Part shown: in pieces, positions 27,470 through 58,089 of the stretch | Position numbering within the stretch: position 1 is the stretch's first letter | Layout of the letters: each line of letters opens with the position of its first letter | Assembly (NCBI RefSeq): GCF_964355755.1 | Contig: NC_092677.1 | Coordinates: 2,671,001 to 2,735,000 of the forward strand | Length of the DNA stretch: 64,000 bases | Source of the DNA: Antedon mediterranea | Lineage: Eukaryota > Echinodermata > Crinoidea > Comatulida > Antedonidae | Direction: 5' to 3' | Made by a program: the position numbers and the translations under genes | Notes under the pieces: generated by a model | What the model saw: the letters and a program-made list of their open reading frames with translations, nothing else | What the model was told of the DNA's origin: nothing | Databases searched by the model: none

Positions 27470-28507
27470 TTAAACTTCATCCTTTTCCCCAATTTCATCC
27501 ATCTCATGTTCGTCATCTTTGAGGAGTTGAGTAAACCTTGTCTTGTTCTTAACCGTCGAAATGACCCTTGTGCTCGTGTTAGTACTGTTCACTTTCGACG
27601 TTTTATTAGACTTACAGCCGAACATTTTCATTAATCCGTCCCGGTAAGATCTACTCATAAGATACAGGATGATGGGATTGCTACAGCCGTTTATATAGAC
27701 CAGGGTTGTTTTCCATGTGGGTAGATGAGATTCGTGCACATCCATTGTGAATTCAAAGAAATCATATTGATAGTGTTTGTAGATACTGTAAAAAGTTGTC
27801 GGAGCCCAGCAAACTGCAAACAGCACAGCAATAACTATAACAAGCATTCCAAGTCTTTGCCGTTCCCTCTGCACCCGGTCACAACTGTTGGACGAATTCT
27901 TAGCAAACTGAGTACTCCTAAATAGACGATGGGCTATCAGAACATACGAAACTAATATTACTATAAGGGGTAGGCCGTAAAATAAACCGGCGCGTACGCA
28001 ATCATACGCGAAACCGCCGGTGTGCTCATAATCTGGCACGTACAAACAATAGGTTGCATTGACCTCTGTACTTGCCTCTCCTAAAAATAATATCGGCGAT
28101 GCCATCGCTATTGAAATAATCCAAATTATAGCGACTACAGTTCCGTAGATTTTACCCGGTCGTAATCGCATAATCGCAAACGGATGAACAATGGCCAGAA
28201 ATCGGTCAATGCTAAGCGCCATTAGTGTCAATACGGCTATGCCTTGACTGACGACAACGGCGACAGCAGTACCAAGGCAAATAACAGGTTTGTTTATGTC
28301 CACAATATCGAATTCAATAAGAACATCAACAAGATCACATGTTAATAATAAGAATAAGTCACCGATTGCAATGTTTGCAAGTAAATAGTTTCTAGGACTA
28401 CTAGTAACTTGACGTGTGAATATGATCAGGATGATAGAGCCATTACACACTGTGCCGATTATCAGCATAACTACATCAAGTATCAATAGTGTGTGTTGTA
28501 CATCCAT
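27470..28507 (-). CDS. Class A (rhodopsin-like) G-protein-coupled receptor, probably peptide-binding
   Basis: One uninterrupted frame of 345 codons encodes seven hydrophobic segments with class A landmarks: TM1 GTVCNGSIIL (N1.50), TM2 LANIAIGDLFLLL, the TM3 end ALSIDRFLAIVHP (DRF in place of DRY), a TM4 tryptophan (IIWIISI), TM5 YGLPLIVILVSYVL, TM6 VLFAVCWAPTTFYS (CWxP) and TM7 NGCSNPIILYLMS (NPxxY variant). A conserved cysteine pair is likely at VICLG and TYCLYV. The region with LLLLTC and VD in TM2-ECL1 and the TM7 text look most like bombesin/CCHamide-type neuropeptide receptors, but I cannot assign the ligand. The frame starts with only about six residues before TM1, and an in-frame stop lies 15 bp upstream, so there is almost no extracellular N-terminus unless an upstream exon supplies one. 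The C-tail is rich in Lys, Ser and acidic residues. Confidence 0.9.
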   Translation of the reverse strand: MDVQHTLLILDVVMLIIGTVCNGSIILIIFTRQVTSSPRNYLLANIAIGDLFLLLTCDLVDVLIEFDIVDINKPVICLGTAVAVVVSQGIAVLTLMALSIDRFLAIVHPFAIMRLRPGKIYGTVVAIIWIISIAMASPILFLGEASTEVNATYCLYVPDYEHTGGFAYDCVRAGLFYGLPLIVILVSYVLIAHRLFRSTQFAKNSSNSCDRVQRERQRLGMLVIVIAVLFAVCWAPTTFYSIYKHYQYDFFEFTMDVHESHLPTWKTTLVYINGCSNPIILYLMSRSYRDGLMKMFGCKSNKTSKVNSTNTSTRVISTVKNKTRFTQLLKDDEHEMDEIGEKDEV

Positions 28508-28689
28508 GTTTGTAGCTTGTTATTTTAAATTTGCGAGTAAAATCGTATCAAACATTCCTGAAAATAAATGGAAAAGAAGCATTACTTCATGGTTCCTGGT
28601 CGACTAGGAGATGTTAATAAGCATCTACTTAGTTTCTAACAAGCAACACCTGACTAACCATAGTTTTCGCTTTTTTGTTTCATCTTTAA

Positions 28690-35300: not shown

Positions 35301-38300
35301 TCAGATCCAAGTTATGACAAGCTTAGTGTATAGGGTTAGACAGCTCAGATCCAAGTTATGACAAGCTTAGTGTATAGGGTTAGACAGCTCAGATCCAAGT
35401 TATGACAAGCTTAGTGTATAGGGTTAGACAGCTCAGATCCAAGTTATGACAAGCTTAGTGTATAGGGTTAGGCAACAATCCCAAGAAATTTACATTAATG
35501 TTATATTTTGTCTGCTCTTAACTTTCTAGGGACATCTTGGTAAACTACACGATGAGATCACAAAAACACTTGAAAAGATTGGCAGTCGAGAGAAATACAT
35601 CAACAACCAGCTGGAGCATCTCTTACAGGAGTTTAGGGCTATGCAAGACAGTTTGGCAGAGGTAAAGTAATGTTTAAATGATGCAGGAAAGGTCAGAGGA
35701 CAATGGTCGGATTAAAATTTACTTTACTCACCTTGCTCACTGAAAAAAAAAATATAGGATTTTTTTTATTGTTGACAGGCAAAAGAGCAATATAGGCAAG
35801 CCAGTGGTGGTGTAACAGAACGGACGAAGATTCTGGCCGAGATATCGGAAGAATTGGATAAAATTAAAGTAGAAATGGAGGAAAAAGGATCAAGCATGAC
35901 TGATGGATGTGAGTAATCATCAAAATATGGTAGTGATATGCCCAAATATGGTAGTGATATGCCTAAATATGGTAGTTACATGCTTAAATATGATAGTGAT
36001 ATGCTTAAATATGGTAATGATATGCCCAAATATTAGTAGTGATATGACATCATCATGTCCATATATATGGGCACATCACATTTTTTTGTCACATAATGTT
36101 TGATAGTGTAGACAGAGCTTTAAACAAACAGAAAAGACAAACGTCTAACATATAAATAAAACATGTGATCGGAAATCGCTTGCATGCGTCCAAAATGAGC
36201 TCTGTTTAATGTCGTATTTTTTAACTGTAAAAGCTTTAAGCGATTAAGTGATTTCTAGCGTTGAACGTTAGAGTTGAAACTCCTGTTTTCTTTCTCGACG
36301 TCGTCGTAACGCGCAAAAATAAATAGAGGACTCCCCTGCCTCTAGCAGTAGGCTCACAGTGTAGGAGACGTGGGCCTAGGCATACTAATATCTCTATACT
36401 GATGGTTCTTCGTTCTCAGTAGGCCGATCCTAGTCCAAATAGTATTTTGGACTAGGCTGAAGACTTTGACCTATGCAAAGTGGCGCTGTGCAACACGGCG
36501 ACACAGCTCGTCTCATTGTCTCACTATTGTTACTCATTTTTTGACGTTATTTTCGTATATTTGGACTGTATTGTATTGTGGACGAAGTCATTTGATTTAT
36601 ACATTATGTTGTATGTGAAAGTTTTGAAATTTCTGTATTTTTTGCTGATATTTTGGCTGTTCTTACTGTGTGGATTGAGTAAGCCGGGCGGTGGAATTGC
36701 GTACACGTCATCTGATTTGCATTCCATGGGCGAGAGGTCGACCTCACCGCTACTGGCACACGTTGAATTACCATCTGAGATACAACGTCGCAGGCTTCGG
36801 AAAAGGGGCAAGGCTGGTGGGGTCAGAAAGCGACTACAACGAAGGAAATGAAAGCCTTTTATACCATCTTTAATATTTGGAAATGTAAGATCTTTGAATA
36901 ACAAAGTCGATTTACTCAGAGCAAACGTCGAACACTTCAGCGATTTTAGGAATGCCAGCTTACTTGCATTCACGGAAACCCACCTGAGCGATAAGCATAG
37001 CGATCAACATATTCAAGTAGTTGGCTTTAAATCTGTTCGTGGGGATCGTACAGCCGAAGCGAACAAAGATGGCGGTGGTGGTCTTTGCCTCTACATTAAT
37101 GAGAAATACTGTCATCCAAATAACTTTACGCTTAAGCTTCATAAATGTTCGCCACACTCGGAAGTGCTGGTTGTTGGTATTCGCCCCTACTATCTTCCGA
37201 GAGAGTTCTCGCATGTTATCAATGTTATGGTATACATACCTAACAAAAAGCTTGAAAAGCCTGCTATAAATGAGATCGCAGAAATTATCGAAGGTATTGA
37301 GTGTAGTCACCCTGAGGCGCTTGTAATTATCAATGGCGATTTCAACAGATGCAAGCTCAAGAAAACAACGGCCACTTATTATCAGCATGTTACATGTAAA
37401 ACGAGGGACAACGCGATTCTTGATTTATGCTACTCTAGTGTGAAGGATGCCTATATTTCGACCCCACTACCGAACTTGGGCAAATCTGATCATAATTTGA
37501 TTTTACTCAGTCCTAAATATCGCCCGTTAAATAAGACATGCCAACCAAAAATTATTAATGTACGTAAATGGTCTCCTGAAGCCGAGGAAGCCCTGATAGC
37601 GGAATTTGAATCTACCGATTGGGATATTTTTACGGAGGATGAAGATTTGAATAGTATTACTTATGCAGTGAGCTCGTACATAAACTTTTGTATTGATAAA
37701 TGCGTTCCAGTTAAAAAAGTGAAAATCTACCCTAACAACAAGCCATGGATCACGAAAGGCGTTAAATTACTGTTGTGTGAGAAACGTAAAGCCTTTAAGA
37801 TGGGCGACTCTAATCGTATGAAAATATTGACTAGAGAGATTAAATCTGAAATAATGAAACAGAAGAACATTTATAGGAAAAAAGTTGAACATAACTTCAG
37901 GTCTAATAATATGAAACAAGTTTGGCAGGGTATGAAACTTATGAGTGGTTACACAAACGGTGGTAATACACCCACCTCGATTCCGAATGTTACTGTGCAA
38001 TATGTTAATGAGTTAAATGAATTTTATAACCGTTTTAATGTTCATGATTTTAAAAAAGAAAGAGAGGCTCTATTTAGCTTGTGTCGGGTGACTGAAGATG
38101 ATCCCAAATTTAGTATAAGCATTTCTGATGTACATAACGAATTCATGAAACTCAATTCATCGAAGGCTGCTGGGCCGGATAGAATCCCACCACGAGTACT
38201 TAAGGTCTGCTCTCCTCACCTTGATGGTATATTTACATTTATTTTCAATATGTGTCTTTCTTATCATGCGTTCCCGGATATTTGGAAACTTTCATGCATA

Positions 38301-39635
38301 ATACCGGTACCTAAGAAACCTAAGATTAACAGCATGAATGATTTGAGACCCGTTGCACTCACGTCTGTCGCGATGAAAATATTGGAACGTATTATTTTAA
38401 AAATTATGCAACCTTATGCTGAAAAAGTGTTAGACCCGTTGCAATTTGCTTACCGATCACTCCGTAGTACCAGTGATGCGATTTATTTTAAATTACATAA
38501 ATTGTATTCACATCTAGATAATGTAAAGAAAGGCCACTCGGCACGTATTATGTATTTTGATTTTCAATCTGCGTTTAATACCATACAACCCCATATCTTA
38601 GCAGACAAAATGTTGAATATGGAGTTTCCCCGTCCGATTGTTCGTTTAGTTTTAAATTTCATTTGTGATAGAAAACAATTTGTTAATATTAATGGTGTTA
38701 CGAAATCGTAACCTCTGACACCGGTGTTCCTCAGGGTACTGTCAACGCACCTAAATTATATTCCTTGTATACGGCGGATTACAGATCTTTAAATGATGAG
38801 CTTTGCCCCGTTGTTAAATTCGCTGATGACACTAGTACTATTGGTCTCATAGTTTCAAACAATGATGAAAATTATCGTAGCGAAATACAAAGATTTGTTA
38901 AATTTTGTGACGATAATTATCTCCAAATAAATGCATCAAAAACAAAGGAGATGATCATTGATTTTAGGACTAAACATAAATTTAATTTTCAACCAATCAC
39001 TATCAAAGGTAAAGAAATTGAAATTGTTGACCAGTACAAGTATCTAGGAATTGTTTTCAATGATAAACTGAGTTGGGGAGACCATATAGACTTCATCAGC
39101 AAAAAATTAAGTCCCAGAATGTATTGTATGAGAACTTTATTTAAATTTAACTCCTGTGATTTGATGTTACTTTCGTTCTATAGATCCGTTATATGTAGTG
39201 TTTGGACGTATTGCCTCTCCTGTTGGGCTGGTAATGTTACCGGAGGGAATAAAGGACGCCTTGAAACTTTCATCCGTTGGGCTGGTAAAATGATTGGTCT
39301 GGAACTGCCTTCCTTTACCGATGTGCACCTAGAACACCTCCAGAAAGATTTCGAACGCATTGAGTCGGATGCCTCTCATCCTCTCCACAAAGTGATCATA
39401 GACCAACTTAATCCAAGTGGTAGATTGAGGCTCCTCAGTGTGAAAACAAATCGATTTGCTAAATCCTTTATTCCCTCCGGTATCATCCAGTACAACAGGA
39501 AGTCAAGAAGATAATTTTATATTGTAATTTTTTAGATGTTTTTATATGAATGGTTTTATGCTATATTTGTTTTTATAGTGTTTTCTTTGTTTTTATGACG
39601 AGCAATGAATTTCCTTTTTGAGGATCAATAAAAGT

Positions 39636-41095: not shown

Positions 41096-44000
41096 ATGAT
41101 GGATCCATTCCAAAATAAGGAAGGCGATCCAGAACTTGTTGATTTTCTTTCAAAAGTTGATGAAATTGGTTAGTAAAAACATGGAGTAACTTATTCTTTA
41201 CTCCACCATGGTAAAAATTGTAAGGGATCAGGTGCCGTTTTCGGCCACCTCGACTTATATGGACTATACCATTATTATGGTAGGGGTGTGGTGTGTATTA
41301 TGTTTTATGTATAGAAGGGTGTCTATTGAATGGGAAGACAATACAATTGTTCTGTTATGTAACATACAGTACAAACTACTGTACAAGAAACAATACAGAA
41401 CATCAAAAACTAGCAAGCATGCACTTTTTAATAAGGCATGTTATTACTGTATTAGGCACTGTGTTACGCAATGCCAAGATTTTGTAACAATATTACTATA
41501 TTAACTAGGCCTATGTATAACTTACTTACTAATACTATAATAAAAACTAACCTAAACACTATAGTATAATCAAAATTAAAACATATTAAATACTATGTTA
41601 TGCCTCTCTTGATTTCAACACATTACATTTTAGTACAATCGGATTCGAAATTAGAAAATCTTAAATACTAAGTAGATAGGTAGATAAATCATATTTTTTA
41701 TTTGCAAGGGATAAATCTCAACATCATGGATTTGAACCTGGTATCGGTAGACGAACATAATTGAAGATTCATTGACATAATTATATGTTTTTTGTTTGTT
41801 TTACCTCACCAGATACATTTACATTTAATTCTAAGTGTAAAACGAATTAGATACAGAAACACAATTCATATTCATTGACATAATTATATGTTTATTTGTT
41901 TTACTGATTACTGATACATTTACATTTAATGTTAAATGTAAATAAATGAAACGAATGTAGATACAGAAACAAAATGGTAACAGATTCATTAACGTAATTA
42001 TATGTATGTTTTCTTTAGGCCTACTGATCACCTGATACATTTACTTTTAATGTTAAATGTAAATAAATGAAACGATTGTAGATACAGAAACAAAATGGTA
42101 ACAGATTCATTGACGATATATATATTATGTATTTTTGTTTTATACGACGACTCGGCTATAGTTGGATACGATTATTCTCTGTACCTTTCTGAGATTATTC
42201 GATTTACCGATTATGGCAACAATTTTCTTGAAATAAACATAAATAAACGAAAGAAATAAGAATTGATTTTCGAAAACATTGGTCTGACAGTATACATTAC
42301 TTAAAGGAAAGGAGGCAGAGATTGTTAACAATTATAAGTATCTGGGAGTAGTGTTTGATTAAAGCTTAAATAGGTGGACATGTTGATCATATAGTTAAGA
42401 AGTTAAATACAAGGCTGACTGCTTGAGGAAACTCAATTCTTTGGGGTAAAGCAGGATATTTGTACTATAGAATGTTTTACTAATCAGTGATGTTCTATTT
42501 GGGGATATTGTATGTTGGGCTGAGAATATTTAGTAAGTGAATGTGGGGATCACCAAATTGAGAAGGTGCTGGGAGCGGGGAAAGTATAAATTGGCTTGTC
42601 TATGCAATTGCTTGACTCGTTCTACAGCGAACAGCTTGCCGATGTATTCCATGCTATATTGGAAGACATGAATCATCCTCTTCATTGCGACATTATCAGC
42701 TCCGTTTTGCATTCGTTATTGTAACGTTTTGATGCAAAAGTTGTTCAATTAGAACATGTAGGCCTATTTCTACACAGAACGTTTAAATACGTGAAATGTT
42801 CTGTGTTTTCTGGGAACAAAATGGTACAGATTCATTGACATAATTTTAATGTTTATTTGTTTTACTGATTACCTAATAATCAGTATGTGATAGATCTTAT
42901 TAAATGTACTACTGTCATCTTTGTTAAATATACTACTGTGTTATCGTTAGATAAATTATATTTTTTATTTGTAACTGGAATAAAAACTAATTTCTTTATA
43001 GGCCTATACTTTCTGTATCCGTAAAAAGTATTCAATATCCACCTTAGGGAATCCACCTAATATCCATTTTAGGGAATGATACCTAAAATTTATATAGAAA
43101 TAAAGAGCCATAATATACTGTATTAACTTGAAAGCTAAAATTGATTCTACAGCGTGTAGGGCGTAGTTGTTTTCCCTTTGTTGCTGAAACATAATGCACT
43201 AAACAAAAGAACAAAAGCAGCAGTATTTTAACACATTAGCACACTCAAATAATAAATGGGACACCCCTATTTTCCCATCTTTTTATAATGGTATAGTCCA
43301 TACAAGTCGAGGTGGCCGAAAACGGCACCGGATCAGGTGCCGTTTTCGGCCACCTCGACTTATATGGACTATACCATTATTATGGTAGGGGTGTGGTGTG
43401 TATTATGTTTTATGTATAGAAGGGTGTCTATTGAATGGGAAGACAATACAATTGTTCTGTTATGTAACATACAGTACAAACTACTGTACAAGAAACAATA
43501 CAGAACATCAAAAACTAGCAAGCATGCACTTTTTAATAAGGCATGTTATTACTGTATTAGGCACTGTGTTACGCAATGCCAAGATTTTGTAACAATATTA
43601 CTATATTAACTAGGCCTATGTATAACTTACTTACTAATACTATAATAAAAACTAACCTAAACACTATAGTATAATCAAAATTAAAACATATTAAATACTA
43701 TGTTATGCCTCTCTTGATTTCAACACATTACATTTTAGTACAATCGGATTCGAAATTAGAAAATCTTAAATACTAAGTAGATAGGTAGATAAATCATATT
43801 TTTTATTTGCAAGGGATAAATCTCAACATCATGGATTTGAACCTGGTATCGGTAGACGAACATAATTGAAGATTCATTGACATAATTATATGTTTTTTGT
43901 TTGTTTTACCTCACCAGATACATTTACATTTAATTCTAAGTGTAAAACGAATTAGATACAGAAACACAATTCATATTCATTGACATAATTATATGTTTAT

Positions 44001-47000
44001 TTGTTTTACTGATTACTGATACATTTACATTTAATGTTAAATGTAAATAAATGAAACGAATGTAGATACAGAAACAAAATGGTAACAGATTCATTAACGT
44101 AATTATATGTATGTTTTCTTTAGGCCTACTGATCACCTGATACATTTACTTTTAATGTTAAATGTAAATAAATGAAACGATTGTAGATACAGAAACAAAA
44201 TGGTAACAGATTCATTGACGATATATATATTATGTATTTTTGTTTTATACGACGACTCGGCTATAGTTGGATACGATTATTCTCTGTACCTTTCTGAGAT
44301 TATTCGATTTACCGATTATGGCAACAATTTTCTTGAAATAAACATAAATAAACGAAAGAAATAAGAATTGATTTTCGAAAACATTGGTCTGACAGTATAC
44401 ATTACTTAAAGGAAAGGAGGCAGAGATTGTTAACAATTATAAGTATCTGGGAGTAGTGTTTGATTAAAGCTTAAATAGGTGGACATGTTGATCATATAGT
44501 TAAGAAGTTAAATACAAGGCTGACTGCTTGAGGAAACTCAATTCTTTGGGGTAAAGCAGGATATTTGTACTATAGAATGTTTTACTAATCAGTGATGTTC
44601 TATTTGGGGATATTGTATGTTGGGCTGAGAATATTTAGTAAGTGAATGTGGGGATCACCAAATTGAGAAGGTGCTGGGAGCGGGGAAAGTATAAATTGGC
44701 TTGTCTATGCAATTGCTTGACTCGTTCTACAGCGAACAGCTTGCCGATGTATTCCATGCTATATTGGAAGACATGAATCATCCTCTTCATTGCGACATTA
44801 TCAGCTCCGTTTTGCATTCGTTATTGTAACGTTTTGATGCAAAAGTTGTTCAATTAGAACATGTAGGCCTATTTCTACACAGAACGTTTAAATACGTGAA
44901 ATGTTCTGTGTTTTCTGGGAACAAAATGGTACAGATTCATTGACATAATTTTAATGTTTATTTGTTTTACTGATTACCTAATAATCAGTATGTGATAGAT
45001 CTTATTAAATGTACTACTGTCATCTTTGTTAAATATACTACTGTGTTATCGTTAGATAAATTATATTTTTTATTTGTAACTGGAATAAAAACTAATTTCT
45101 TTATAGGCCTATACTTTCTGTATCCGTAAAAAGTATTCAATATCCACCTTAGGGAATCCACCTAATATCCATTTTAGGGAATGATACCTAAAATTTATAT
45201 AGAAATAAAGAGCCATAATATACTGTATTAACTTGAAAGCTAAAATTGATTCTACAGCGTGTAGGGCGTAGTTGTTTTCCCTTTGTTGCTGAAACATAAT
45301 GCACTAAACAAAAGAACAAAAGCAGCAGTATTTTAACACATTAGCACACTCAAATAATAAATGGGACACCCCTATTTTCCCATCTTTTTATAATGGTATA
45401 GTCCATACAAGTCGAGGTGGCCGAAAACGGCACCTGATCCATTGTAAAATAAAGCCTGGTCTGCTAGGCCTATCTAGGCCTAGTAGGGCCTAGCTAGCAG
45501 GTATTATTAGTAGTAGGCCTGCCTAGCCTAGCTAGGCCTAATTGTGTGTTGGACCTAGCCTAGTCTAGTAGAGAGGCTGTGCTTGCTTGGCTAGCTAGCT
45601 AGGACTGGCCTAGTAATAGGAGGCTAGGTGCGAAAGTGCAATGTTTGTAGCGCCTTGTTATCATGTTATATAAAAGAAGTAGGCCTAGCCCTCCCTAGCT
45701 AGGCCTATATATAATATTTCACTTTGGTTGCTTTGCACATTATATTATTATTATTATGTATTGTAGATAAAATAGTTAAAGGATTGAATACAGAAGATGA
45801 CAGTGAACAGAAAAAGGCATTATCAAAAGCAGACAAGATGATTAAAGAGACCAGTAGTAAAATCAACAAGACAATCATTAACAAGACAATCATTAACAAG
45901 ACATCAGCAAACGGCATGGTTAGTTTTATGGTTACTTTTGGTACCGTGTTGTTGGTTGTGGCTTGCCATATAAATGAATAGATATTATTATAACACTATT
46001 TTTGTATCTTTGTTCTTTCAGGACGTAGGTGGGCTTCCACAGGGAATGACACAAGGTATAGCTTGAAATTAAAACACTAGGCTATTGGTCACTCAGGTGT
46101 TAATTTACAAAAATAATTGGTTGTTGTTTATGAATTAAGTTTCTAAACTATTTCTTCTATGTTGTAAATATGCACTAAATAATTGAATGTTTGAACCTTT
46201 ATTTCAGATGCTTTCATGGCATCAGTAGAAGCTGACGCAAGGGAGCGTGCTCAGAGACGTAAAGTTAAAACAAAACGAGCAACCGAGTGGAAAGAAAAAG
46301 GAAATCAGGAATTTAAGGCTGGAAAGTTTGAGAAAGCTGTTGAATATTATACTGAAGGACTTGAATGCCTCAAAGATATGGTAGTCCTTTACACAAATAG
46401 AGCTCAGGTATTTAAACTTATTTCAAAATGGGGATCTTTACATGATTGTAACCCACAATTCTTAAAATGTTGTCACTTGCTCTTAAATTATTGTCATAAA
46501 TTCTTAGAAAGTTGTCAATTATAATTAAATTATTTTCACCAATTCTTAGAATGTTGTCACTCTTAAATTATTGTCACCAATTCCCAAAATCTTGTCACTT
46601 ACTTTTAAATTATTGTCACCAATTCTTAGTAATGTTGTCAACTGTTAAATTACTGTCACCAATTCAACTTACAGTACACTTTAAGTTGTTGCTGACACTG
46701 TAATTTTTATTGAGTTTTTTGGTTACGTTACAGGCATTTAACAAACTAGCTCAATACAATGATGCCATAAAGGACTGTGACACAGCTTTGATCATTGATG
46801 ATAAAAACACAAAAGCTCACATTCAGAAAGGCAATGCTTACCTTGGTCTGTTACAGTATACAAAAGCAATAGAAACATATCAAGAAATATTGAAAATTAA
46901 CCCAAAACAAGAAAAAATAATAAATGGTAAGTAAACAAGTTAAAACAACAATGTGGTCTGCTGTCACAAAGTATATTCATAATTTGTTTTTATTACAAAA

Positions 47001-50000
47001 TTGAATTAGTATATAATATAATGATTACTAATTATTAATTTTCTTTTGTTAAGCATATTGAGGCTTTGTATAATACGCTATATAAACCCCATTTATTATT
47101 TATTTGTTAATGATGTAGGTTTTTTTTTAACTTTTAGATTATGTTCAGAAAGCATCCATGGCCATGGAAGCATCAGAGGCTGAAATGGCAGCCTCTAAAC
47201 TTATAGCAGAAGAGGACAAGAAAGCTTCAAATCTATTGCAACTTATTGAGAAACTGGGACAGACAGACAAACCGGTTGTTTACTATGTTGGTGGCTTGCA
47301 ACTCCTTGCAGCTCAAATAAATGATGGTAATCAAAACATGTTATTTACTTGTGAGTTAGTTAGTAGTTGGTTAGTTGTTAATTGATAATAGTTAGTTGTG
47401 AGTTAGTTGTTACTTATTTGTTAGTTAATTGTTAATTGATAATAGTTAGTTGTCATTTACTTGTTAGTTAGTTGTTAGTTAGTTTGTTGTTAGTTTGTTG
47501 TTAGTTTGTTAATACTCATTTTTATATATTTCTACACTCTTCACAGATATATCAAAGACGTTATTTCGTTCAAATTCTGGATTTGAACTGCTTTTTGACC
47601 AATCATACCTTAGCAAGAAAATTCAGCATGCTCCAGTGAGCACGGACACCGAGATCTGTGAGCTTGCAAGAGTGGCCGTACATGTCTGTGTACAAGTCAC
47701 AGCAAAACATGGTAAGAGGGACGTACTGTACATACAGCATAACAATTACTTAATAGTTTAATATCAAAATGTGTTGATAAAATAGTTATAAAACCACCTA
47801 GAAACTAAGTTCTTCTAAGTGAAATGTTTAAAAATCCTTTATAATTAAAGATCGTCTCCAATTAGAGACCACTTTACCTAACTGAAGTTAATGAACACAA
47901 AAGTATAATAGAAATGCTTTAGTTAGGTGATTCTAATAGAAGACCAAGACTGCTAAGAGGGAATAGTAAAAATGAGTTTTAAAATTAGATTAACATTGTT
48001 GTTAATATTATTATTCAACAGAAGTAAACACTAAGTACATACTTGAGCAAGATGGGTTTAATGAGTTCCTTCTCAACTGTCTCCAATCGACGACTAGTGT
48101 TCTGCTGAAAGAGGATTGTGCAAGATTCTTGTTCCAATTGTCACAGACCAGTCTAGCACGATCTATCATTATATCAAGGTTTGATACATCAAGGTAAATG
48201 AGTGGTTGGTAATTATTAGGCCTAGGATACATAGGCTTTTTGTTCCAATTGTCACAGACCAGCCTGGCACGATCTATCATTATATCTAGGCTTGATACAT
48301 CAAGGTAAATGAGTGGTTGGAAATGATTAGGCCTAGGATACATAGGCTTTTTGTTCCAATTGTCACAGACCAGCCTAGCACGATCTATCATTATATCTAG
48401 GCTTGATACATCAAGGTAAATTAGTTGGTGGTAATTATTAGACCTGAAGTATACATATACTCTTCGAAATGATCACATACTGTATGACCATGTGCAATGT
48501 GTTATATACATAGGTTAATGAAGAATTTGCGATTCATTTTTATTTATTTATTGACCAATTCACCTTTGGACAGTCCAAAAGCAAAACATAACAATTTGAA
48601 AAAGAAACAAAAAGAAGGAAAACATAATGAGAGGGGAAAAAAAAAACTTAGTTTGCTTTCATCATTTGCATGTAAATATTGTGTCCATATTGTGTCATTA
48701 TTTGTGAATACTTGTGTATAATTGGGACAGAGAGACAGACAGACAAATTGCATTTATGTTAAGAGATATTACAGTACTTGTTAAGGCTATACATGTTTGA
48801 ATTTAAACATTGTTTTCAATTTTATTAGGCTGATGTTGGGACTGATCAGCTGTGTTCAGATCTCAGAACAAGGAGCTGAAAATGCCATGAAAAGTTTAAA
48901 CAATCTTGCCCTAGAAAAACAGTAAGTACTAAGTCTTTTCTTCAACAGAGTAAGCAATTTAATTCATAATTCTATTCATTTGTATAACAGGGTAGTTTTG
49001 AGAACAGTTACGTAAACGTTTTTAAGCGAACTGTTGATAGGTGTTGTTAGCTTGTCTTGATTTATTAATCAAAACCTTTATATAGCATTATTTGTTTGTT
49101 CTTCAGATTTCTAGGTCTTGTACGTGTAGAAATGAAAACTAACCTATTACCTGCTTTTGAAGAGATTCTCGTAAGTTGTAAAGATTTCTTCTATGCCCAA
49201 ACATTAAGATATCATTCTGAGAATTCTTTATCAACCAGGCACAGATAGTGCAACTTGCATTGATAATTGGTGTCCATGAGTGTTGAGAGGAGAAATAATG
49301 TTGTCTTGAGAGGTGGTGGACTGGTGTTGTGTGTAATACCCACTGTGTGTAGTGGGGTGAGGTAGTGTTTTCTGATGGTTAAAGGGTGGGTGTTGGTGGT
49401 GTAAATGTTTGAGAGGGATGGTCATTTAATGGGTCAGAAAAAAGATATTAATTTTACAGTATGTTTATTTTTGTTATTTCTTTAGCTGCACAGTGAGTCA
49501 TTTAATAGTACTGTATTCCCATTGTGTATTTTATTATTTCTTTATCTGCACAGTGAGTCAGTTAATAGTACTGTATTCCCATTGTGTATTTTATTATTTC
49601 TTTATCTGCACAGTGAGTCAGTTAACAGTACTGTATTCCCATTGTGTATTTTATTATTTCTTTAGCTGCACAGTGAGTCAGTTAACAGTACTGTATTCCC
49701 ATTGTGTATTTTATTATTTCTTTAGCTGCACAGTGAGTCAGTTAATAGTACTGTATTCCCATTGTGTATTTTATTATTTCTTTATCTGCACAGTGAGTCA
49801 GTTAACAGTACTGTATTCCCATTGTGTATTTTATTATTTCTTTAGCTGCACAGTGAATCAGTTAACAGTACTGTATTCCCATCCTTTATTTTATTATTTC
49901 TTTAGCTGCACAGTGAGTCACTTAATAGTACTGTAATCCCATTGTGTATTTTATTATTTCTTTAGCTGCACAGTGAGTCAGTTAATAGTACTGTGTTCCC

Positions 50001-53000
50001 ATCCATTATTTTATTATTTCTTTAGCTGCACAGTGAGTCAGTTAATAGTACTGTATTCCCATTGTGTTAATTTTTATTATTTCTTTATCTGCACAGTGGG
50101 TCAGTTAACAGTACTGTATTCCCATTGTGTATTTTATTATTTCTTTAGCTGCACAGTGAATCAGTTAACAGTACTGTATTCCCATCCTTTATTTTATTAT
50201 TTCTTTAGCTGCACAGTGAGTCACTTAATAGTACTGTAATCCCATTGTGTATTTTATTATTTCTTTAGCTGCACAGTGAGTCAGTTAATAGTACTGTGTT
50301 CCCATCCATTATTTTATTATTTCTTTAGCTGCACAGTGAGTCAGTTAATAGTACTGTATTCCCATTGTGTATTTTATTATTTCTTTAGCTGCACAGTGAG
50401 TCAGTTAATAGTACTGTATTCCCATTGTGTATTTTATTATTTCTTTAGCTGCACAGTGAGTCAGTTAATAGTACTGTATTCCCATTGTGTATTTTATTAT
50501 TTCTTTAGCTGCACAGTGAGTCAGTCAATAGTACTGTATTCCCATTGTGTATCTCAACCATATCCAACATGACACATGATGACCATATTAGGAAACAAAT
50601 GTCAGCTGACAAGAATTTCTGGCAAGCTATGCTGTCAACTTTGGTAAGTAAGTAAGGATCTTAAAAGATTGCAGCCTTCTGATCAAAGTTCCCAATATTA
50701 AAAGATTTTTATTGGTAAATTATCATTATCTTTGAATAAAATAAAATATCCATAGAACAAGAGATCTTAAATGTGCCCATATATGGACATGATGATGTCA
50801 TATCACTACCTAATTTGGGCATATCACTACCATATTTGGACACATCACACTTTTTTGTCGAACTAGTTTGATATTGTAGACAGAGCATTGGCATCTACAA
50901 TGGTTATGCCAGGCACTTGGCAAAGGCAGAATATGCGTGAAGGCAATAAATTTTCACCTTGTTTGTTGAGCCCAAGTAATAAATTTATACAAAAATTGCA
51001 TTTAAGCAGATTGGCAGATGGCGCAAAATAATGGGAAACTCCTGTGCTTATCAGGAGGGTTGGGGGATCTGAATTATTTTTTTAATGATTTTGAACTTGA
51101 TATACATTTTTTCTTCAGAAAACCCATTGTAGTAAGATAAACAGAGAAGAAAGTGAAAAAGTGTTGGAACCTCTACTTGGTTTGTGTATGAACTTATCCC
51201 TTGAGAAAGTTCATGCTGAGCACCAGCTTACACTACCACTTACTAATTGTGTTGTACCGCTACTTAGCAGAACAAATCAACAATTGATAATGGTTTGTTT
51301 ATTTTGCTTTATATATCAACAGTATTACTTTTTAATTAAATGTTCTAATTAAAGAAAATGCTATTCTGATGTTACTATTTGCTAGTGTTCAAAAATCCTT
51401 TTCAAATATAGTTCAAATGTTAATAACCATACAATAGGCCATTATTGGACATAATGTGTCATTGGACTGTATAGAAACATGTATGTTCTGAATAATTTGA
51501 CACTAAAAATAATTTCATATGTACAATATTTTCAAAGTTATGCGATTTTATGTAGTGCAAAGTTCAAAGGTCAATAATGTTAGAATCGGCCATTTTTTGC
51601 AAAAACATGCCATTGGACTAAATATAAATATGTAGTTTCTGAATAGTTTGAGCCATATTGTGTGTCTCTCAGATAAGTGGTTGCTAAGATATGATAAATC
51701 AAGGTCAAAGGTCAATAATGTTAGAATCCGCCATTTTTTGCAAAAACATGCCATTAGACTGGATATAAATGTGTAGTTTCTGAACAATTTAAGCCCTAAT
51801 TTGTATATCTCCGATTAGTGGTTGCTGAGATATGATAAATCAAGGTCAAAGGTCAATAATGTTAGAAATAGCACTTCCATTCATTTTTGGACAAACTTTT
51901 TCATTAAAGTGAATATAAAAACATATATTCTAACGATTTTGACACCATAATTAAGTATCTGTGACTAGCGGTTTTCAAGATACAGAGTACGTTATTAAAA
52001 ATGGCGGCCATTTTTAATTATGCAAATTAGGCTACTTCCTGTTGTCGAAAAATGTCCTAACGTTGATAAATGTGTTCAGTAGGGTCTAAAGAACACATTT
52101 CATCAAAAAAACCTTTTCTTGCAATAGGCCTTACGGCGAAGCTGAAATGATGCCTGGAAAAGCAATCCCGTTCCTCATCAAGCATAATACTTTTTTACCA
52201 CATATACTGTTCTAAATAAATACTAATAGTACAAAAAGTAAAAGTTCCACAAAAAAATACCTGGCGTTTGGTAGAAAATTACCGTTAAAGTTGGTAAATA
52301 TGCTAACGATTTCTTACGAAATAGCGAGGCTGAAACAACTGGTGGCGCACTATAACTAGACTGTACTATTATTATCACGGTTTATAAGAAATATATAGGC
52401 AAGTTATTTATTATCAAAATAGATTTATTCTTTATTTTTTTAAATAAATTTGGTGAATACAAATTTATATTAACTCTAAAATTGAAATTTAGAGTTAATA
52501 ATTATCCCCCGACATTAAAACATTTATAATTACAAATGGCTTCAACTGTTCGTATAATGGTTTCTCCCGACAGGTAGGCTATTAATAGCAGTAGAAATAC
52601 AGCAGCAATATTACATAGTGACTGATATGATTTAACTGTGAAACATATAGAACACATATTCCTAGTAATAAACACCAATGCAATAGTAAATTTAAATTAT
52701 TAAATAAAATACAAACATCAAATATTTGTTTTGTTTCAATGTAATTGTATTTATTCTCATGGTTAATATTTTTCTTTATATTCTCATGGTTACACAATTT
52801 CTTTTAATGGTTACACAATTTCTATTTTTCTTTATATTCTCATGGTTACAGTTTTTATTATTATATTCTCGTGGTTAAATTATTTATTTATATTCTCATG
52901 GTTACAGTTTTTATTATTATATTCTCGTGGTTACATTATTTATTTATATTCTCATGGTTACAGTTTTTATTATTATATTCTCATGGTTATATTATTTATT

Positions 53001-56000
53001 TATATTCTCATGGTTTCCATTTTGTTTTCATTTTTTTTAAATCTTTTTTTTTATTCACATGCTCACAGTTTCTATTTGCATAACCATGGTTAGTGTTTCA
53101 TCACATTGGTTATAGTGTAGGCCTATTACATTACAGTTACTTTTTATGATGATTTTGTTGCATTCAAAACCGTATAAACAATATATTTCATATTCATCTT
53201 CCTTATAGTCTAATTCATCATCTTCAATGCCATAGTCTGGTGTGTCTTCTTTTTCTTCTTCTTCTTCTCTTGTCCTGTTTTCACACTCATCTCATTCACA
53301 CTCGAACAGTTAATCCTAGAGCAAGTGACTTTGGAGTCTGCCTTCTTCCTTTCCAAGCAAGGTACAGGATGTCCTGGCATATCGATAAAATTTTTGTTCG
53401 AGTTTCTTCAGTAACATCTGAAAATGAGGTTTGTATAGTATCTTCTGCAGCACCAACACACTTTGCGATTAGAGTAAACAACTCATATGGCACAATTTCA
53501 GATATGTCAACATCATTAATGTCCGCTGCTCTTGGAGGCCATTCACTCTGCATACCTTTGTTGGATTTGATGGCATTATTTACTATCGTACCTGCAACTA
53601 CATTTTATAGCATTGGGTGAATGAAACATAGTAATAATAAATTTATATAAAGCATATACTGTATTGTGTACAGCATTTATGATCGACACCACTTACTATC
53701 ATAACAGTTTTGTTTTTTGAGTGCATACAGCTTTCACCTCTTTGATCCACAGCATTTCCTTAATTATGCAATAACATTTATTGTTGTTATTTAAAAATAA
53801 ACCAATATATACAAGTTATTGTATTTTAACCGTACCTGCAAAATATAGAGTCCTTAGTTTGTCTCTATTGTCACCATCAGTGGAGATTTCGTGTGTTGTA
53901 GAAGTAGTTGGAATATCTATGTCATACTTTGATGATTCATCTGTCTCTGTTGTACTTTTTCCTGATGACAAAAATGGATCAGCCACAAATCCAGGGGATA
54001 CATTGCTAAAGTACACCAGAACTGATTCATTTCTAATTAAGAAAAAATAAATAAAATATTTAGTTTGACCAATCCACAAAAAAATAATTTTTTTTTAAAT
54101 TATCCCTGGTGAAAAAATCATTTAATATAAACACACTAAGCAACTAACCTTCTTGTGGGTGAATGGAAAATTAGGTTAGGATAATCCATCCTGAGCTTCT
54201 TCTTCAACACGTCTGATCTATAAATAACACATTAATTGATTATAATTAATTGTAACACAGAAACAATGAAGAAATTATTACAGTAACTGGATCTCAAAAT
54301 TATTTCATCGTTTTTAAGAAGGGATCGACAGCCTACCTTATAGTTGACAAGTAAACTTTTTCTGTTTTTTCAATTGATTTCATGAAAAGCTTTTGGAGTT
54401 TTGCGAGTCTTAGTATCTCCTGTCCATACTGTAACCGTTTATCAATTACATCTCTGCAAAATACCTTATAGCTTTGCTTATATGTTAAAAAAACACTTTC
54501 CAATTCCCTGTAAATAATAATAAATACTGTATTATTAAAATATATTTTAATATTTTATAGATTTTGGTGTTTAAAAATTCAACATTTAGACTGAAGCAAA
54601 TAAAAAAAAAATTAAAAATGTAAATTAAAAAAACCAACAGAGTTTTAGAAAGTTACGTTTTACTCACTTTCCAGAATCATGTCGTTTACGTGAATTAACA
54701 ACTATTTTGGTGTAGTTTTTGTAACATTGGTCATGATATCGCACTTCAATACAAGCACAGCTTTTTCCTCGAATGTCTTTTAAAATACTTTCGTCCTCTC
54801 TCATTTCTGCAGCTTTTCGCAACATTCCTGTCATAAATCAAATCAACAAAAGCAATAGTGTGTAAATTCCTAAATGATTGAAATGATATTTTGTTATGCA
54901 TAACTACAGCATGGAGATATAAAATGTATAGCTCCATGATTACACTATATAGCAAAGGTTCACATGGAAGAAATGTCCTGGAACACCTCATTATGCTGTA
55001 CAGTAGGAAGCTTTTCTAATTGGATTACATCAGTTGAGCCTGCAAAACTCATTATAGGATGGGGATTAGAAAGCAGATTGATTAATTAACCATATGTTTA
55101 CAAATTTCAAGGATAGGAGAAACAACAATAACAAGTGAATTTTTTTTCTTCAAATAATTACCTGCATCATCTGTTAAAGCCTTTCTTAATTTATCATGAC
55201 CTCTTTTGCCTTGGATCGTCACTAATTTGTCTTGCAATTTACAAATGATACATTTCTTTGGCAAAATAGTGGCTTTTTGAACCATTGCTGTGGCTGAACT
55301 ACTTCTCAAAAAATGCTTGGCCCTCTTAACTGGTGGCTCATCTGGGCTCTCACTGTCTCCTGCTTGGGATCTCTTTTTGGCAACTCTTGTTTCAGCCTAA
55401 ACATCAATTTCAACGTATAATTAATTTATACAGCATTTTATTTTGTCTTATATAGAGCCTATATTGGTATTTAACTAAAATTAATTTTGTAGCCTACTGA
55501 ATAATATATACTGTATAATATAATATGGCCTAGGCCTACGTAGTAGTACTGGTACTACAGAGTAGAAAGCCCAATCAACAACCAAGCACAGAAACTAAGG
55601 GCACAATATATAGATCTATAAGTAAGTGCAGTAGCACCCTATATACTGTATCATTTAACTATATTATTAACTCTTAGAGTATTCTGATAATAATCGAAAC
55701 CAAATATTACCTTTTTTAGTCGAGATGTATCAGTATATCGCCTGTAACAGGTAGCATGAAAACCTAAGCCTGGATGCTCGCGTACGACATCGTCAAACGA
55801 TTTACCTTCATCAGACATACCAAGCTCCGTCAAATGTATGGCGATTTCCTTGCCGTTTCCATCTAATTTTATCCAACTCTTTGAACAGAGCAACACTTTT
55901 TTCCATCGAATCTCAGTAATTGGACTGATAATTTCATTTGAATGCTTGTAAATTTGGAAAAAACATTTCAACTTTACTTTGTCTGAGCGAGAAGATCCTT

Positions 56001-58089
56001 CCTCGTCGGACGCCATTTCGTGTTTACATCGTGTGATTTTGACGTCTGCTGCCTAAACGTCGCGTATGATTGGTTTAACTGATGTCATGTGATACAAAAT
56101 GGCAACTGCGAAAATATATTCTTTTAAACTTTTAAAATCAAGATTTCTTTAAAATGTCAGGAAAATTTTCGTGGAACTTTTTAATACGTAATTAATTTAT
56201 TTTTATGTATATGAATCAAGAGAGTTCACTTATTATGCTTAATGAGGAACAAGAAAAAATGTTTTCATCTTCACCGTAAGGCCTACAATTTGTGTGAGTT
56301 AAAAGTCTAAATCCCATTGACTAAATGTATAATGCTTAACTGAGAATGCAGGTTTAATAATCTTCCGTTAACTGCTTAACAGGCAATGTGATTTGTCCTA
56401 ATTTGTGTTGGGTCTTTACATGTATTGCTGACCTGTCCAATGTGCCTTGTTTGAAAGCTTGCTAATAACTTGGAATTCCTTGAATTTCTGAGTCCAGCTT
56501 GAGATAGGTTATTCCTCTATATGTTGTATATATAGTAACACTAAGCCTCTATGTGTAGTTATCATAGAAACCACTCCCAGGAGGACTTGCAGAGTTCTTA
56601 AGGTGTTACTAGAACTGTACTTGCAGAGTTCTTAAGGTGTTACTAGAACTGTACTTGCAGAGTTCTTAAGGTGTTACTAGAACTGTACTTGCAGAGTTCT
56701 TAAGGTGTTACTAGAACTGTACTTGCAGAGTTCTTAAGGTGTTACTAGAACTGTACTTTATATAATTGTAATACTTATTTATTCCAGCGTGTATGTGGGT
56801 TACTGAGCCGAGTCCTTGTGTATTCAACTGAAGCAGTTGATTATTGTGTTCAGCAACATATTGTTGATATCATGATGAACATACTTAAACAGGTATGTAC
56901 AATAAATATCCAATTGTAAGTCTCAACTATAACCCACCTCCACTCAACGGCCTATCATTCCCACTTTATATGTTTATAACATGTTTAATAATCTTGTATC
57001 CAAAAACAAATTTTGTCCTCTTCAAAGCTGTATTAAAAATCACTCTTCACTTTTTTTCTAAGAGTAAAGATGAAACATGCAAGAAGTATTGTCTGAAATG
57101 TCTGACTGTGATAACACAGAGCAATCAGGAATCAAGAAGACAGATACTATCACAAGATAAAGGTAATTACTAATCAATTTACTAACCCTCTGATTTTATT
57201 ATTCTCAAATGTTCTCATTTAGGCATTGATTGTTTTTATATATGATTTGTATATTGCTGTTTTGTGATGGAGATGCCTATTTCCACTATATCATAGCGTA
57301 CATGTATGTGTTTATCAAAATGATTTAACTAATACCAGGGAAGAGTCTTGTTGTAAATATCAGCTATGTCCCCGTAGTAATGATGTAGCTGTACACCAAA
57401 TCTGTAACTTGGTGGTTAACATGCTTGCCTTCCAATCTCAAGGTCCAGGGTTCAAATCTGACCTTTTTATTTCACGCCCTAGGCGTCAAATGAGATTTAA
57501 AGCATGATTCAATTCAATTCAATTCAATTCAACTTTATTTCAGACAAACTGTCCATATGAAACATATAAATACAATAAAAATAATACAAAGCATTATGTG
57601 ACAACCGTCATGGAGAGAGGACTAATAATTATTTGTTGACACATAGTGCCTCTTAAAATACATGTGGATTATGTATGTGGATTTAGTATCTATCCGGTAA
57701 TAATGATAAGTTATTTGCTGTTTGAGGCATTGGATTTGTATTAAATAAAAGCTCCTTGTCCACTATAACCTATTTCAATATGTTTTATTTTTTTAAAAGG
57801 TCTAACAAAGTTGGTGTATTATCTAGACAGTGAAGATGCCATGATGATAGCGAACGCTGCGTTATGTATCGGACATTGTGTACAAGAACCAGGAGCTAGC
57901 CACCATGTCAGTACAGATGTAGTCAAGACATTACTGACAAGAACAGACACTACGAACACTTCAATTAAACAAAACTGTGCAATCACTCTAGCTAAGCTTG
58001 CTACTACAAGTCCAGATCATCTTAATATGCTCAAGAAGTTAGGAGGGATAGGTATTTTGAATAGCTGTATGAAGTATGTAAATTCATGA
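41096..58089 (+). CDS. TTC12: TTC12, tetratricopeptide repeat protein of dynein-arm assembly (complete, fifteen exons)
   Basis: TTC12 is a cytoplasmic TPR/armadillo-fold protein needed for assembly of axonemal dynein arms; human loss causes a ciliary dyskinesia. Exons: 41096-41168, 45767-45918, 46022-46055, 46208-46407, 46734-46926, 47138-47326, 47547-47711, 48022-48193, 48829-48921, 49107-49170, 50509-50643, 51119-51292, 56788-56892, 57063-57162, 57800-58089 (TGA). All borders and phases fit, giving 712 residues (human about 705). Diagnostic text: ASVEADARERAQRRK before the TPRs, WKEKGNQEFKAGKFEKAVEY (from about residue 113), LYTNRAQAFNKLAQY, INPKQ, then a helical C-terminal half ending ANAALCIGHCVQEPG, LAKLATTSP and GILNSCMKYVNS. 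Exon 2 contains a small in-frame repeat (INKTI three times). A second ATG follows the first at 41099. The donor of exon 8 and the acceptor of exon 11 lie in tandem arrays of themselves. Intron 1 holds a TIR-element dimer; intron 12 holds a minus-strand gene. Confidence 0.95.
41225..43329. mobile_element. TIR element, copy 1 of a head-to-tail pair
   Basis: It begins GGATCAGGTGCCGTTTTCGG, then CCACCTCGACTTATATGGAC and TATACCATTAT. It ends with the inverse of this sequence but lacks the last six bases (TGATCC), because copy 2 starts there. The inverted ends are about 42 bp with high identity. Length is 2105 bp. The left flank is ATTGTAAG (41217-41224). No transposase is visible, so the element is non-autonomous. 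It carries a decayed Rex1-like fragment. By TSD length it could belong to the hAT group. Confidence 0.85.
42305..42720 (+). pseudogene. Rex1-like fragment carried inside the TIR element (also at 44410-44825)
   Basis: Reading + strand, AAGGAGGCAGAGATTGTTAA encodes KEAEIVNNYKYLGVVFD, then stops and frame changes follow, with traces such as ADCLRKLNSLG and a C-terminal block before 42720. The same order (KEIEIVDQYKYLGIVF) occurs in the element at 39.0 kb. It is badly decayed. The identical copy 2105 bp downstream was duplicated together with the host element. Confidence 0.7.
43330..45440. mobile_element. TIR element, copy 2 of a head-to-tail pair
   Basis: Everywhere I compared it, copy 2 matches copy 1; features recur at an exact offset of 2105 bp. 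The right end GGCACCTGATCC is complete. The right flank is ATTGTAAA (45441-45448), which matches the left flank of copy 1 at seven of eight positions. The pair therefore looks like one insertion with a single 8-bp target duplication around both copies. Confidence 0.88.
45449..45766. other. End of TTC12 intron 1, AGGCCTAG-rich
   Basis: Short words TAGGCCTA, CTAGCTAG and GCCTAGC are repeated without a fixed unit. The same vocabulary occurs near 6240-6430 and 17010-17230. This is simple-sequence drift; no gene seen. Confidence 0.5.
46430..46690. repeat. About 42-bp tandem repeat in TTC12 intron 4
   Basis: Five or six diverged copies of a unit with TTCTTAGAATGTTGTCAC and TCTTAAATTATTGTCACCAA. 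It begins about 25 bp after the exon 4 donor and does not include exon sequence. Confidence 0.8.
48129..48461. repeat. 111-bp triplication spanning the donor of TTC12 exon 8
   Basis: Units start TTGTTCCAATTGTCACAGAC at 48129, 48240 and 48351. Each contains the last 65 bp of exon 8 and a GTAAAT donor (48194, 48305, 48416), followed by intronic AGTGGTTGG and, in the first two, CCTAGGATACATAGGC. Only the first unit is joined to the exon body. Reading past its donor meets TAA at once, so the two downstream donors cannot extend the protein. Confidence 0.9.
48462..48828. other. TTC12 intron 8 remainder with a possible LINE 3' end
   Basis: About 48530-48640 (TTTATTTATTGACCAATTCA then A-rich sequence with AAAAGCAAAACATAACA) resembles a minus-strand LINE 3' end. 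Nothing else was recognised. Confidence 0.35.
49171..49465. other. First part of TTC12 intron 10
   Basis: This stretch is G/T-rich (GTGGTGGACTGGTGTTGTGT), with no repeat or gene seen. It is the only unique part of the intron before the acceptor array. Confidence 0.5.
49466..50550. repeat. 18-unit array of the exon 11 acceptor of TTC12
   Basis: Units of 60 bp (one of 63) each contain TTTATTATTTCTTTAG, then CTGCACAGTGAGTCAGTTAA and TAGTACTGTATTCCCATTGT, that is, a 3' splice site and the first about 40 bp of exon 11. Positions after the AG: 49486, 49546, 49606, 49666, 49726, 49786, 49846, 49906, 49966, 50026, 50089, 50149, 50209, 50269, 50329, 50389, 50449 and 50509. Four units (49546, 49606, 49786, 50089) have AT in place of the AG. 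The last unit (50509) is the one joined to the unique exon body. Its own AG is part of a TAG in frame with the exon (50506-50508). Confidence 0.95.
50771..50887. mobile_element. Family A element, copy A9 (left end missing)
   Basis: Keeps GTGCCCATATATGGACATGA, CACTACC words and the right end GTCGAACTAGTTTGATATTG with AGACAGAGC. It lies in TTC12 intron 11. Confidence 0.75.
51400..52060. repeat. About 155-bp diverged tandem repeat
   Basis: Units contain CAAGGTCAAAGGTCAATAAT, GTTAGAAT, CCATTTTTTGCAAAAACATG and TATAAATATGTAGTTTCTGA. Two clear copies lie at about 51550-51860 and poorer ones on either side. Words such as TTTGACCTTTGACC recur in inverse orientation at 61.5-62.1 kb, so the two regions probably share a repeat family. 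The stretch 52061-52750 shows nothing recognisable. Confidence 0.65.
52755..53095. repeat. Minisatellite with TTCTCATGGTTACA words
   Basis: Alternating 20-48-bp units of TATATTCTCATGGTTACAGT and TTTTATTATTATATTCTCGT, about eight copies. It lies in TTC12 intron 12, between exon 12 and the minus-strand gene. Confidence 0.85.
53302..56016 (-). CDS. Uncharacterised animal protein with Cys/His-rich modules, N-terminal half (seven exons), nested in TTC12
   Basis: Exons, minus strand: 56016-55711 (ATG), 55396-55162, 54827-54668, 54507-54337, 54217-54149, 54032-53836 and 53591-53302. All have AG/GT borders and matching phases, and none has an internal stop; the last donor (GTGTGA) is less certain. 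The protein opens with MASDEEGSSRSDK, then two probable metal-binding modules: KLKCFFQIYKHS with FHATCYRRYTD, and KKCIICKLQDKL with RYHDQCYKNYTK. Later blocks are AAEMREDESIL, YGQEILRLAKLQKL and QTPKSLALGLTVR. This order fits a large uncharacterised family of invertebrates and fish that usually continues with a PIN/FEN1-like C-terminal half. That half is not found between 51293 and 53302, so the gene looks truncated. The function is unknown; the family's copy number suggests links to mobile elements, which is inference. Confidence 0.75.
56580..56757. repeat. 35-bp minisatellite just before TTC12 exon 13
   Basis: Five copies of a unit with ACTTGCAGAGTTCTTAAGGT and GTTACTAGAACTGT. It ends 30 bp before the exon 13 acceptor but does not include it. 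Each unit contains a CTTGCAG/A word that resembles a 3' splice site. Confidence 0.9.
57500..57610 (-). mobile_element. LINE 3' end (minus strand) in TTC12 intron 14
   Basis: ATTCAATTCAATTCAATTCA followed by ACTTTATTTCAGACAAACTG is the inverted form of a LINE 3' end with a short pentamer tail. No coding part remains. Confidence 0.5.

Follow-up and report, generated by a model that had tools for sequence, protein, structure and literature searches.

Tandem duplications that span an intron-exon boundary, termed mirages, have been described in amphioxus, where they occur in Adh, globin, troponin C, and PGBD5 (PMC3087553, PMC3902484; these and the papers cited below are represented here by excerpts of their text). 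Mirages form at both 5' and 3' boundaries and are unstable in unit number, and regular splicing has been reported for them (PMC3087553, PMC3902484). Amphioxus BflGb6 has 6 and 3 units in two haplotypes (PMC3087553), and lancelet PGBD5 has repeats of 60 and 108 bp, among them a 3 x 108 bp triplication, with imperfect duplications (PMC3902484). Internal tandem repeats in human segmental duplications have ~30-bp units and ~4 repeats on average (PMC2812944), and duplicated splice sites are mentioned in the methods of a further paper (PMC8724738). Here, we analyze a 64,000-nucleotide (nt) stretch of DNA (the window; positions 2671001 to 2735000 of contig C8 in a 354-Mb genome of 18 contigs) in which the gene TTC12 carries two arrays of this kind, one of acceptor units at exon E8 and one of donor units at exon E5.

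The window copy of the gene (W) has 18 acceptor units, and the other two copies (B and C) have 24 and 2; the corresponding numbers of donor units are 3, 9, and 16. In all three copies the repeated unit spans a boundary and AG or GT is mostly kept; array length differs among the paralogues, and the inner units, read by eye, are homogenized. Judged by these sequence features, the arrays belong to the known mirage type and are real, large, and well replicated. They resemble the amphioxus mirages of Adh3, BflGb6, and BflGb9 as minisatellite-like boundary duplications in which AG or GT survives in many units, the number of units varies, and units are homogenized within the cluster with its edges left out (PMC3087553). 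They differ from BflGb6 in size, with 2 to 24 acceptor and 3 to 16 donor units against 6 and 3, and from the mirages in the excerpts of that paper in that a single gene has both boundary types, all three paralogues share them, and the relationship among the copies shifts at an array. The TTC12 host also showed no sign of being an amphioxus: neither a Pfam model of GFP nor a lancelet-type GFP sequence gave a genome match, in searches that each lacked a positive control. Of the other markers, let-7 is present in the genome, which makes a bilaterian host probable; mir-2 (60 of 131,623 candidates scored), GH6 as a tunicate marker, and COX1 gave no match. These searches likewise had no animal positive control and, with those for GFP, do no more than weaken the case for an amphioxus or a tunicate. 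Compared with lancelet PGBD5 and its 3 x 108 bp (PMC3902484), the TTC12 arrays are longer, with up to 24 units. A link between intragenic tandem duplication and splice sites is also made in work on intron gain by tandem genomic duplication (PMC4974935); in TTC12, unlike in that process, the segment that was duplicated had a boundary within it from the start, and the array lengthens an old intron. Human internal tandem repeats (PMC2812944) are also variable minisatellites that alter exon-intron structure between paralogues, sometimes at a boundary; they differ in their ~30-bp units and in possible new introns that are backed by transcripts. Taken together, these comparisons and the evidence below make it probable that the TTC12 arrays are mirage-type minisatellites that grew by unequal exchange and conversion, with splicing set by exon definition and the use of each site predicted.

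Acceptor and donor arrays of TTC12

A first-pass annotation of the window had described 18 tandem 60-bp units at exon E8, each made of an acceptor and about 40 bp of exon. Tandem Repeats Finder (TRF) and a listing of the units bear this out: the step between units is 60 bp except for one of 63 bp, and each unit joins 44 nt of exon start to 16 nt of intron end and so spans the boundary. As a repeat, the array is far beyond chance. The unit listing also agrees with the annotated split between 14 units with AG and 4 with AT (units 2, 3, 6, and 11). AG is kept in 21/24 units of copy B and 2/2 of copy C; counting only the decoys, that is, the acceptors upstream of the last one, it is kept in 13/17 (W), 20/23 (B), and 1/1 (C), or 34/41 in total. 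As annotated, only the last unit, unit 18, reaches the exon body.

We computed the reading frame from each acceptor by joining the exons in order and treating the four AT units as if they were usable. In copy W, acceptor 18 alone keeps the frame open, giving a product of 623 amino acids (aa), and each of the remaining 17 units leads to a stop at 370 to 415 aa. Most decoy products already end at the next unit's TAG. Decoy 17 is the only one whose product gets to the in-frame TAG that holds the authentic AG (Table 1); the predicted frames thus confirm that this TAG stops decoy products at the latest. All upstream units of copies B and C (23 and 1, respectively) likewise lead to an early stop. 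The choice of the last acceptor had been presented as a puzzle; it stands insofar as the full-length product needs that site and decoy products are truncated in the predicted frames, but as a puzzle it is not new, since mirages have been published. We considered whether the array could be a translated protein repeat and rejected this, because the one frame that is open over long stretches differs from the frame of the exon. NAGNAG-type tandem acceptors have alternative AGs 3 nt apart and change the protein in frame. They were excluded here, since the AGs are 60 bp apart (63 bp at one step) and all decoys lead to stops.

The 111-bp array at the donor of E5 is a second boundary array of TTC12 and was absent from the first-pass annotation. 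Its GTs in copy W lie at 48194, 48305, and 48416. Every donor unit keeps its GT (3/3 in W, 9/9 in B, and 16/16 in C), with GTTAAT in 5/9 units of B. As computed for W and C, the frame is open from the first donor alone, and the other donors lead to a stop at 304 aa.

A protein search of the genome found full TTC12 genes as W, B, and C only, together with a 3' fragment ridden with stops; other matches, on contigs C4 and C10, were weak (32 to 39% identity) and limited to the tetratricopeptide repeat (TPR) part. Copies B and C lie on contig C8 and on the same strand as W. Both kinds of array are present in every copy found, and none is array free; TTC12 protein from these copies must therefore come through both arrays.

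Choice among near-identical splice sites

The authentic acceptor of copy W is identical to decoy 17 from -139 to +17, and in copy B the authentic acceptor matches decoy 20 over 231 nt upstream and 15 nt downstream. Given the identity in W, local context cannot separate the last site from decoy 17. From unit 2 onward, every acceptor has a branch-like TTAAY motif 40 nt upstream (43 nt in W unit 11), in DNA derived from the exon, and is preceded by an AG-free stretch of 35 nt (38 nt in W unit 11). The original intron end, with a TTAAT of its own that is probably the original branch region of the intron, now lies at unit 1, ~1 kb away from the exon body. The array has thus split the old splice site, with its intron side at one end and its exon side at the other. 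The last acceptor stands out by the exon body that adjoins it and by a donor lying 135 nt downstream. Because local signals are identical and these are the sole special features, we infer that exon definition picks the last acceptor; site use is a prediction from the sequence.

We propose that a short segment of TTC12 across the intron end and exon start was duplicated in tandem and that the resulting array then expanded and contracted through unequal exchange and conversion. The 111-bp array at the E5 donor would have formed likewise, and both arrays would add to intron length and nothing to coding sequence. The last acceptor, or the first donor in the other array, would be chosen as the sole one directly beside the exon body; together with the downstream donor, the last acceptor would bound the shortest exon (135 nt), so that exon definition rather than local signal strength would decide.

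Turnover of the arrays and probable exchange between copies

In copy W, units 7 to 10 recur exactly as units 12 to 15, and in copy B every second unit is alike, giving an alternation in twos. These different higher-order periods indicate that the arrays turned over independently. Read by eye, the first units of W and B are outliers, and the inner units have copy-specific patterns.

The closest relative of copy C is W on the left flank of the acceptor array and B on the right. To the left, W and C differ at 3 of 774 aligned sites (introns 4 and 6 and the left part of intron 7); to the right, intron 8 of C is identical to that of B at 462/466 sites and to that of W at 455/468. Informative sites in intron 7, left of the array, group W with C by 18:1, and those in intron 8, right of it, group B with C by 10:1 (P = 4e-6). 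In wider sums, sites favoring W+C over B+C stand at 33:2 across introns 4 and 6 and the left part of intron 7, and at 9:211 when every piece from exon 8 onward is counted; the latter ratio is inflated by introns 10 and 11 of W, which are strongly diverged (58 to 71% identity). The left-side sum excludes exon 5 and the pieces left of intron 4, whose few sites give a mixed picture. Intron 5 to the right of the donor array was excluded from the count for its poor alignment against B. Exon 5 has 2 sites for W+C versus 4 for B+C, and no site in exons 6 and 7 separates the two groupings. The simplest reading of this mosaic would be an unequal exchange or conversion that ended in or beside the acceptor array. 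Such an exchange may also explain why copy C has just two units.

Coding constraint and chance placement

The coding sequences of W, B, and C are all open, that of B only with a transposon in exon E2 left out of the reading. The ratio of nonsynonymous to synonymous changes per site (dN/dS) is 0.117 for W-B, 0.171 for W-C, and 0.215 for B-C, and nonsynonymous changes are the rarer class in each pair (Fisher P of 3e-11, 2e-8, and 0.0015, respectively). TTC12 is under purifying selection. W and B both have the AT variant of the acceptor in their arrays, so an array carrying it probably predates their split. This suggests that W has been constrained while carrying the array.

Of the 174,902 bp studied, which have a GC content of 33.8%, tandem arrays with a period of at least 20 take up 11.9%. 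Two of the 22 splice sites of copy W lie inside arrays, against about 2.2 to 2.5 expected by circular shift. A special placement of arrays at splice sites is ruled out for TTC12 by this comparison (2/22 versus ~2.5 expected), and arrays over its splice sites need no special cause.

Observations that weigh against the proposed history and site choice come from several sides. Exons starting at the nearest decoys would measure 195, 255, and 315 nt, which is a normal size, and some misuse is expected. Unit 1, with the original intron and a branch-like motif, would be favored by a simple 5'-to-3' search. Left of intron 4 the relationships among the copies are mixed, and a 140-nt tail of exon 2 backs B+C by 7:1, pointing to a history of more than one exchange. 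Finally, at 30 control loci, drawn from 80 genome matches to the myosin head and covered by arrays over 8.8% of their length, only 1 of 60 match edges lay near an array, a 2-copy 28-bp repeat, which is below the array cover; these edges are those of profile matches and were not checked as exon ends. A single exon, copied on contig C3, accounts for 13 of the 30 loci, and without these the count is 1 of 34 edges. Boundary arrays are thus not everywhere, and other genes may have been purged of them.

Rival readings

The decoys could be more than passengers. If they were partly used and the resulting nonsense transcripts destroyed, unit number would set the TTC12 output of each copy. The retention of AG in 34/41 decoys and the early stop that follows each of them fit such a regulatory role, as do the different unit numbers of the paralogues, and the predicted stops precede several later junctions, which makes decay plausible on general grounds. 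Inspection by eye showed no pattern of selection in the decoys, however, array position fits chance in TTC12, unit number varies without a sign of constraint, and the published mirages are reported without aberrant mRNA in the excerpts of PMC3902484. We consider regulation by the array unlikely. Two suggestions of the first-pass annotation are not supported. Selection on the decoys, judged by eye and with no formal test, finds no support, since most decoys retain their AG and the array lies where chance could place it; no selection for destroyed decoys was apparent by eye, the acceptor G-to-T change occurring in 7/44 units, a frequency in line with that of other variable columns. Tuning of TTC12 output by the array is equally unsupported, unit number differing widely between paralogues and position fitting chance. 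In a bolder version, the arrays would be splicing competitors of variable length: identical acceptors would compete, told apart by exon definition alone, and unit number would set the nonsense share of TTC12 transcripts. This version also seems doubtful; were it true, a paralogue exchange ending at the array would swap gene halves and reset expression at once.

Each unit could instead hold a nested mini-intron. An acceptor followed after 7 nt by GTGAGT would allow stepwise removal of 53-nt introns, and AG occurs together with GTGAGT at +8 in 12/18 (W), 20/24 (B), and 2/2 (C) units, with the TTAAY motif at its regular distance upstream from unit 2 on (40 nt; 43 nt in W unit 11). Against this, each step would leave 7 nt behind, all 11 introns of each copy are at least 161 nt long, and the authentic exon has GTGAGT too, with the frame conserved across it; we regard such stepwise removal as highly improbable. 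A decaying copy W, in which splicing is no longer of consequence, is conceivable because one of three copies could be spared and copy B is already interrupted in E2. Decay of W is made very unlikely by its open frame of 623 codons, by splice sites that are intact, and by a dN/dS of 0.12 to 0.17 against B and C, as well as by the presence of arrays in B and C. Assemblies often go wrong at tandem arrays and near-identical copies, and array length or the gene copies themselves might be artefacts of collapsed or stacked haplotypes. Yet unit number and higher-order pattern differ between copies, and the transposon of B is missing from W and C. In a search of W 38000 to 64000, collinear matches of at least 300 bp to B and C were limited to 40.1 to ~59.5 kb, other matches being scattered or inverted repeats, whereas stacked haplotypes should align throughout. 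The chance of an assembly artefact therefore appears slight. The reading as mirages spliced by exon definition is the one that we retain.

Gene model and genomic surroundings

The coordinates of the TTC12 features in the window are collected in Table 1. The name TTC12 rests on a presumed similarity to the human and other vertebrate protein along the length of the product. The model of copy W has 623 codons open counted from the first Met, with splice sites intact, and its product has TPR matches at the start and armadillo-type matches towards the end. Solved structures matched at an E value of 1e-5 (best 60 of 85 chain sequences, by name) were TPR proteins and engineered repeats, and none of those 60 was called TTC12. 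The count of 12 exons begins at the exon holding MASVE. At least one further TTC12 exon probably lies upstream, near 45.7 kb, where an open frame presumably resembles human TTC12. A 15-bp tandem repeat of 2.6 copies (45865 to 45903) lies in this probable exon and reads in frame as repeated NKTII. Intron 9 (51293 to 56787) is 5,495 bp long in W, versus 330 in B and 733 in C, and that of W holds several tandem repeats.

Table 1. Features of TTC12 copy W in the window (window coordinates)
Feature	Position	Strand	Remarks
TTC12 copy W	46208..58089	+	12 exons in model; stop codon at 58089
Exon E5	48022..48193	+	donor is unit 1 of the donor array
Donor array	48129..48445	+	3 units of 111 bp, each E5 end plus GTAAAT donor
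Exon E6	48829..48921	+	
Exon E7	49107..49170	+	exon 10 of the first-pass annotation
TTAAT, branch-point-like motif	49448..49452	+	adjoins unit 1; A lies 34 nt upstream of AG end
Acceptor array	49469..50552	+	TRF: period 60, 18.0 copies, 93% match
AG of unit 1	49484..49485	+	decoy still preceded by original intron
In-frame TAG with authentic acceptor AG	50506..50508	+	AG at 50507-50508
Exon E8	50509..50643	+	135 nt, donor gtaagtaag; exon 11 of the first-pass annotation
Exon E9	51119..51292	+	

Copy B has an insert of ~2.5 kb in exon E2, at C8:2797869-2800395, bounded by GGGTCATTCCA and its complement as inverted ends. The insert looks like a DNA transposon and is in neither W nor C; with it, copy B is probably broken. 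Between W and B, at C8:2764058-2764847, lies the 3' fragment of TTC12, with four stops, which reads as the relic of a fourth copy.

Directly upstream of TTC12, a tandem duplication of ~2.1 kb (41190 to 45303) has identical open frames at that spacing. Elsewhere in the window, open frames at 36852 to 39514 look by eye like those of a non-LTR (long terminal repeat) retrotransposon reverse transcriptase, and a 349-aa open frame on the minus strand (27470 to 28519) resembles, also by eye, a peptide-type G-protein-coupled receptor. The longest array of the window, a 53-bp unit repeated 43 times with copies 97% alike, lies at 10078 to 12364. Outside the window, one part of the myosin head (profile ~342 to 408) is matched 19 times over the 5.5 Mb of C3:19618101-25122537. 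Translations of 13 of these matches hardly differ, one of them containing a stop, and the group has the appearance of a large myosin gene expansion, which we take to resemble myosin XIX.

Implications

Artificial constructs are the usual means of studying how identical splice sites compete. The value of the TTC12 case lies in a natural experiment on splice-site choice and not in a new mechanism: near-identical acceptors upstream of one exon number 2, 18, and 24 in copies C, W, and B, and donors downstream of another exon number 16, 3, and 9. The copies form a natural test of how far position alone sets splice-site choice, and they bear on whether a minisatellite can grow through a splice site without cost. 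Should the host fall outside the cephalochordates, splice-site minisatellites of this size would be more general among animals.

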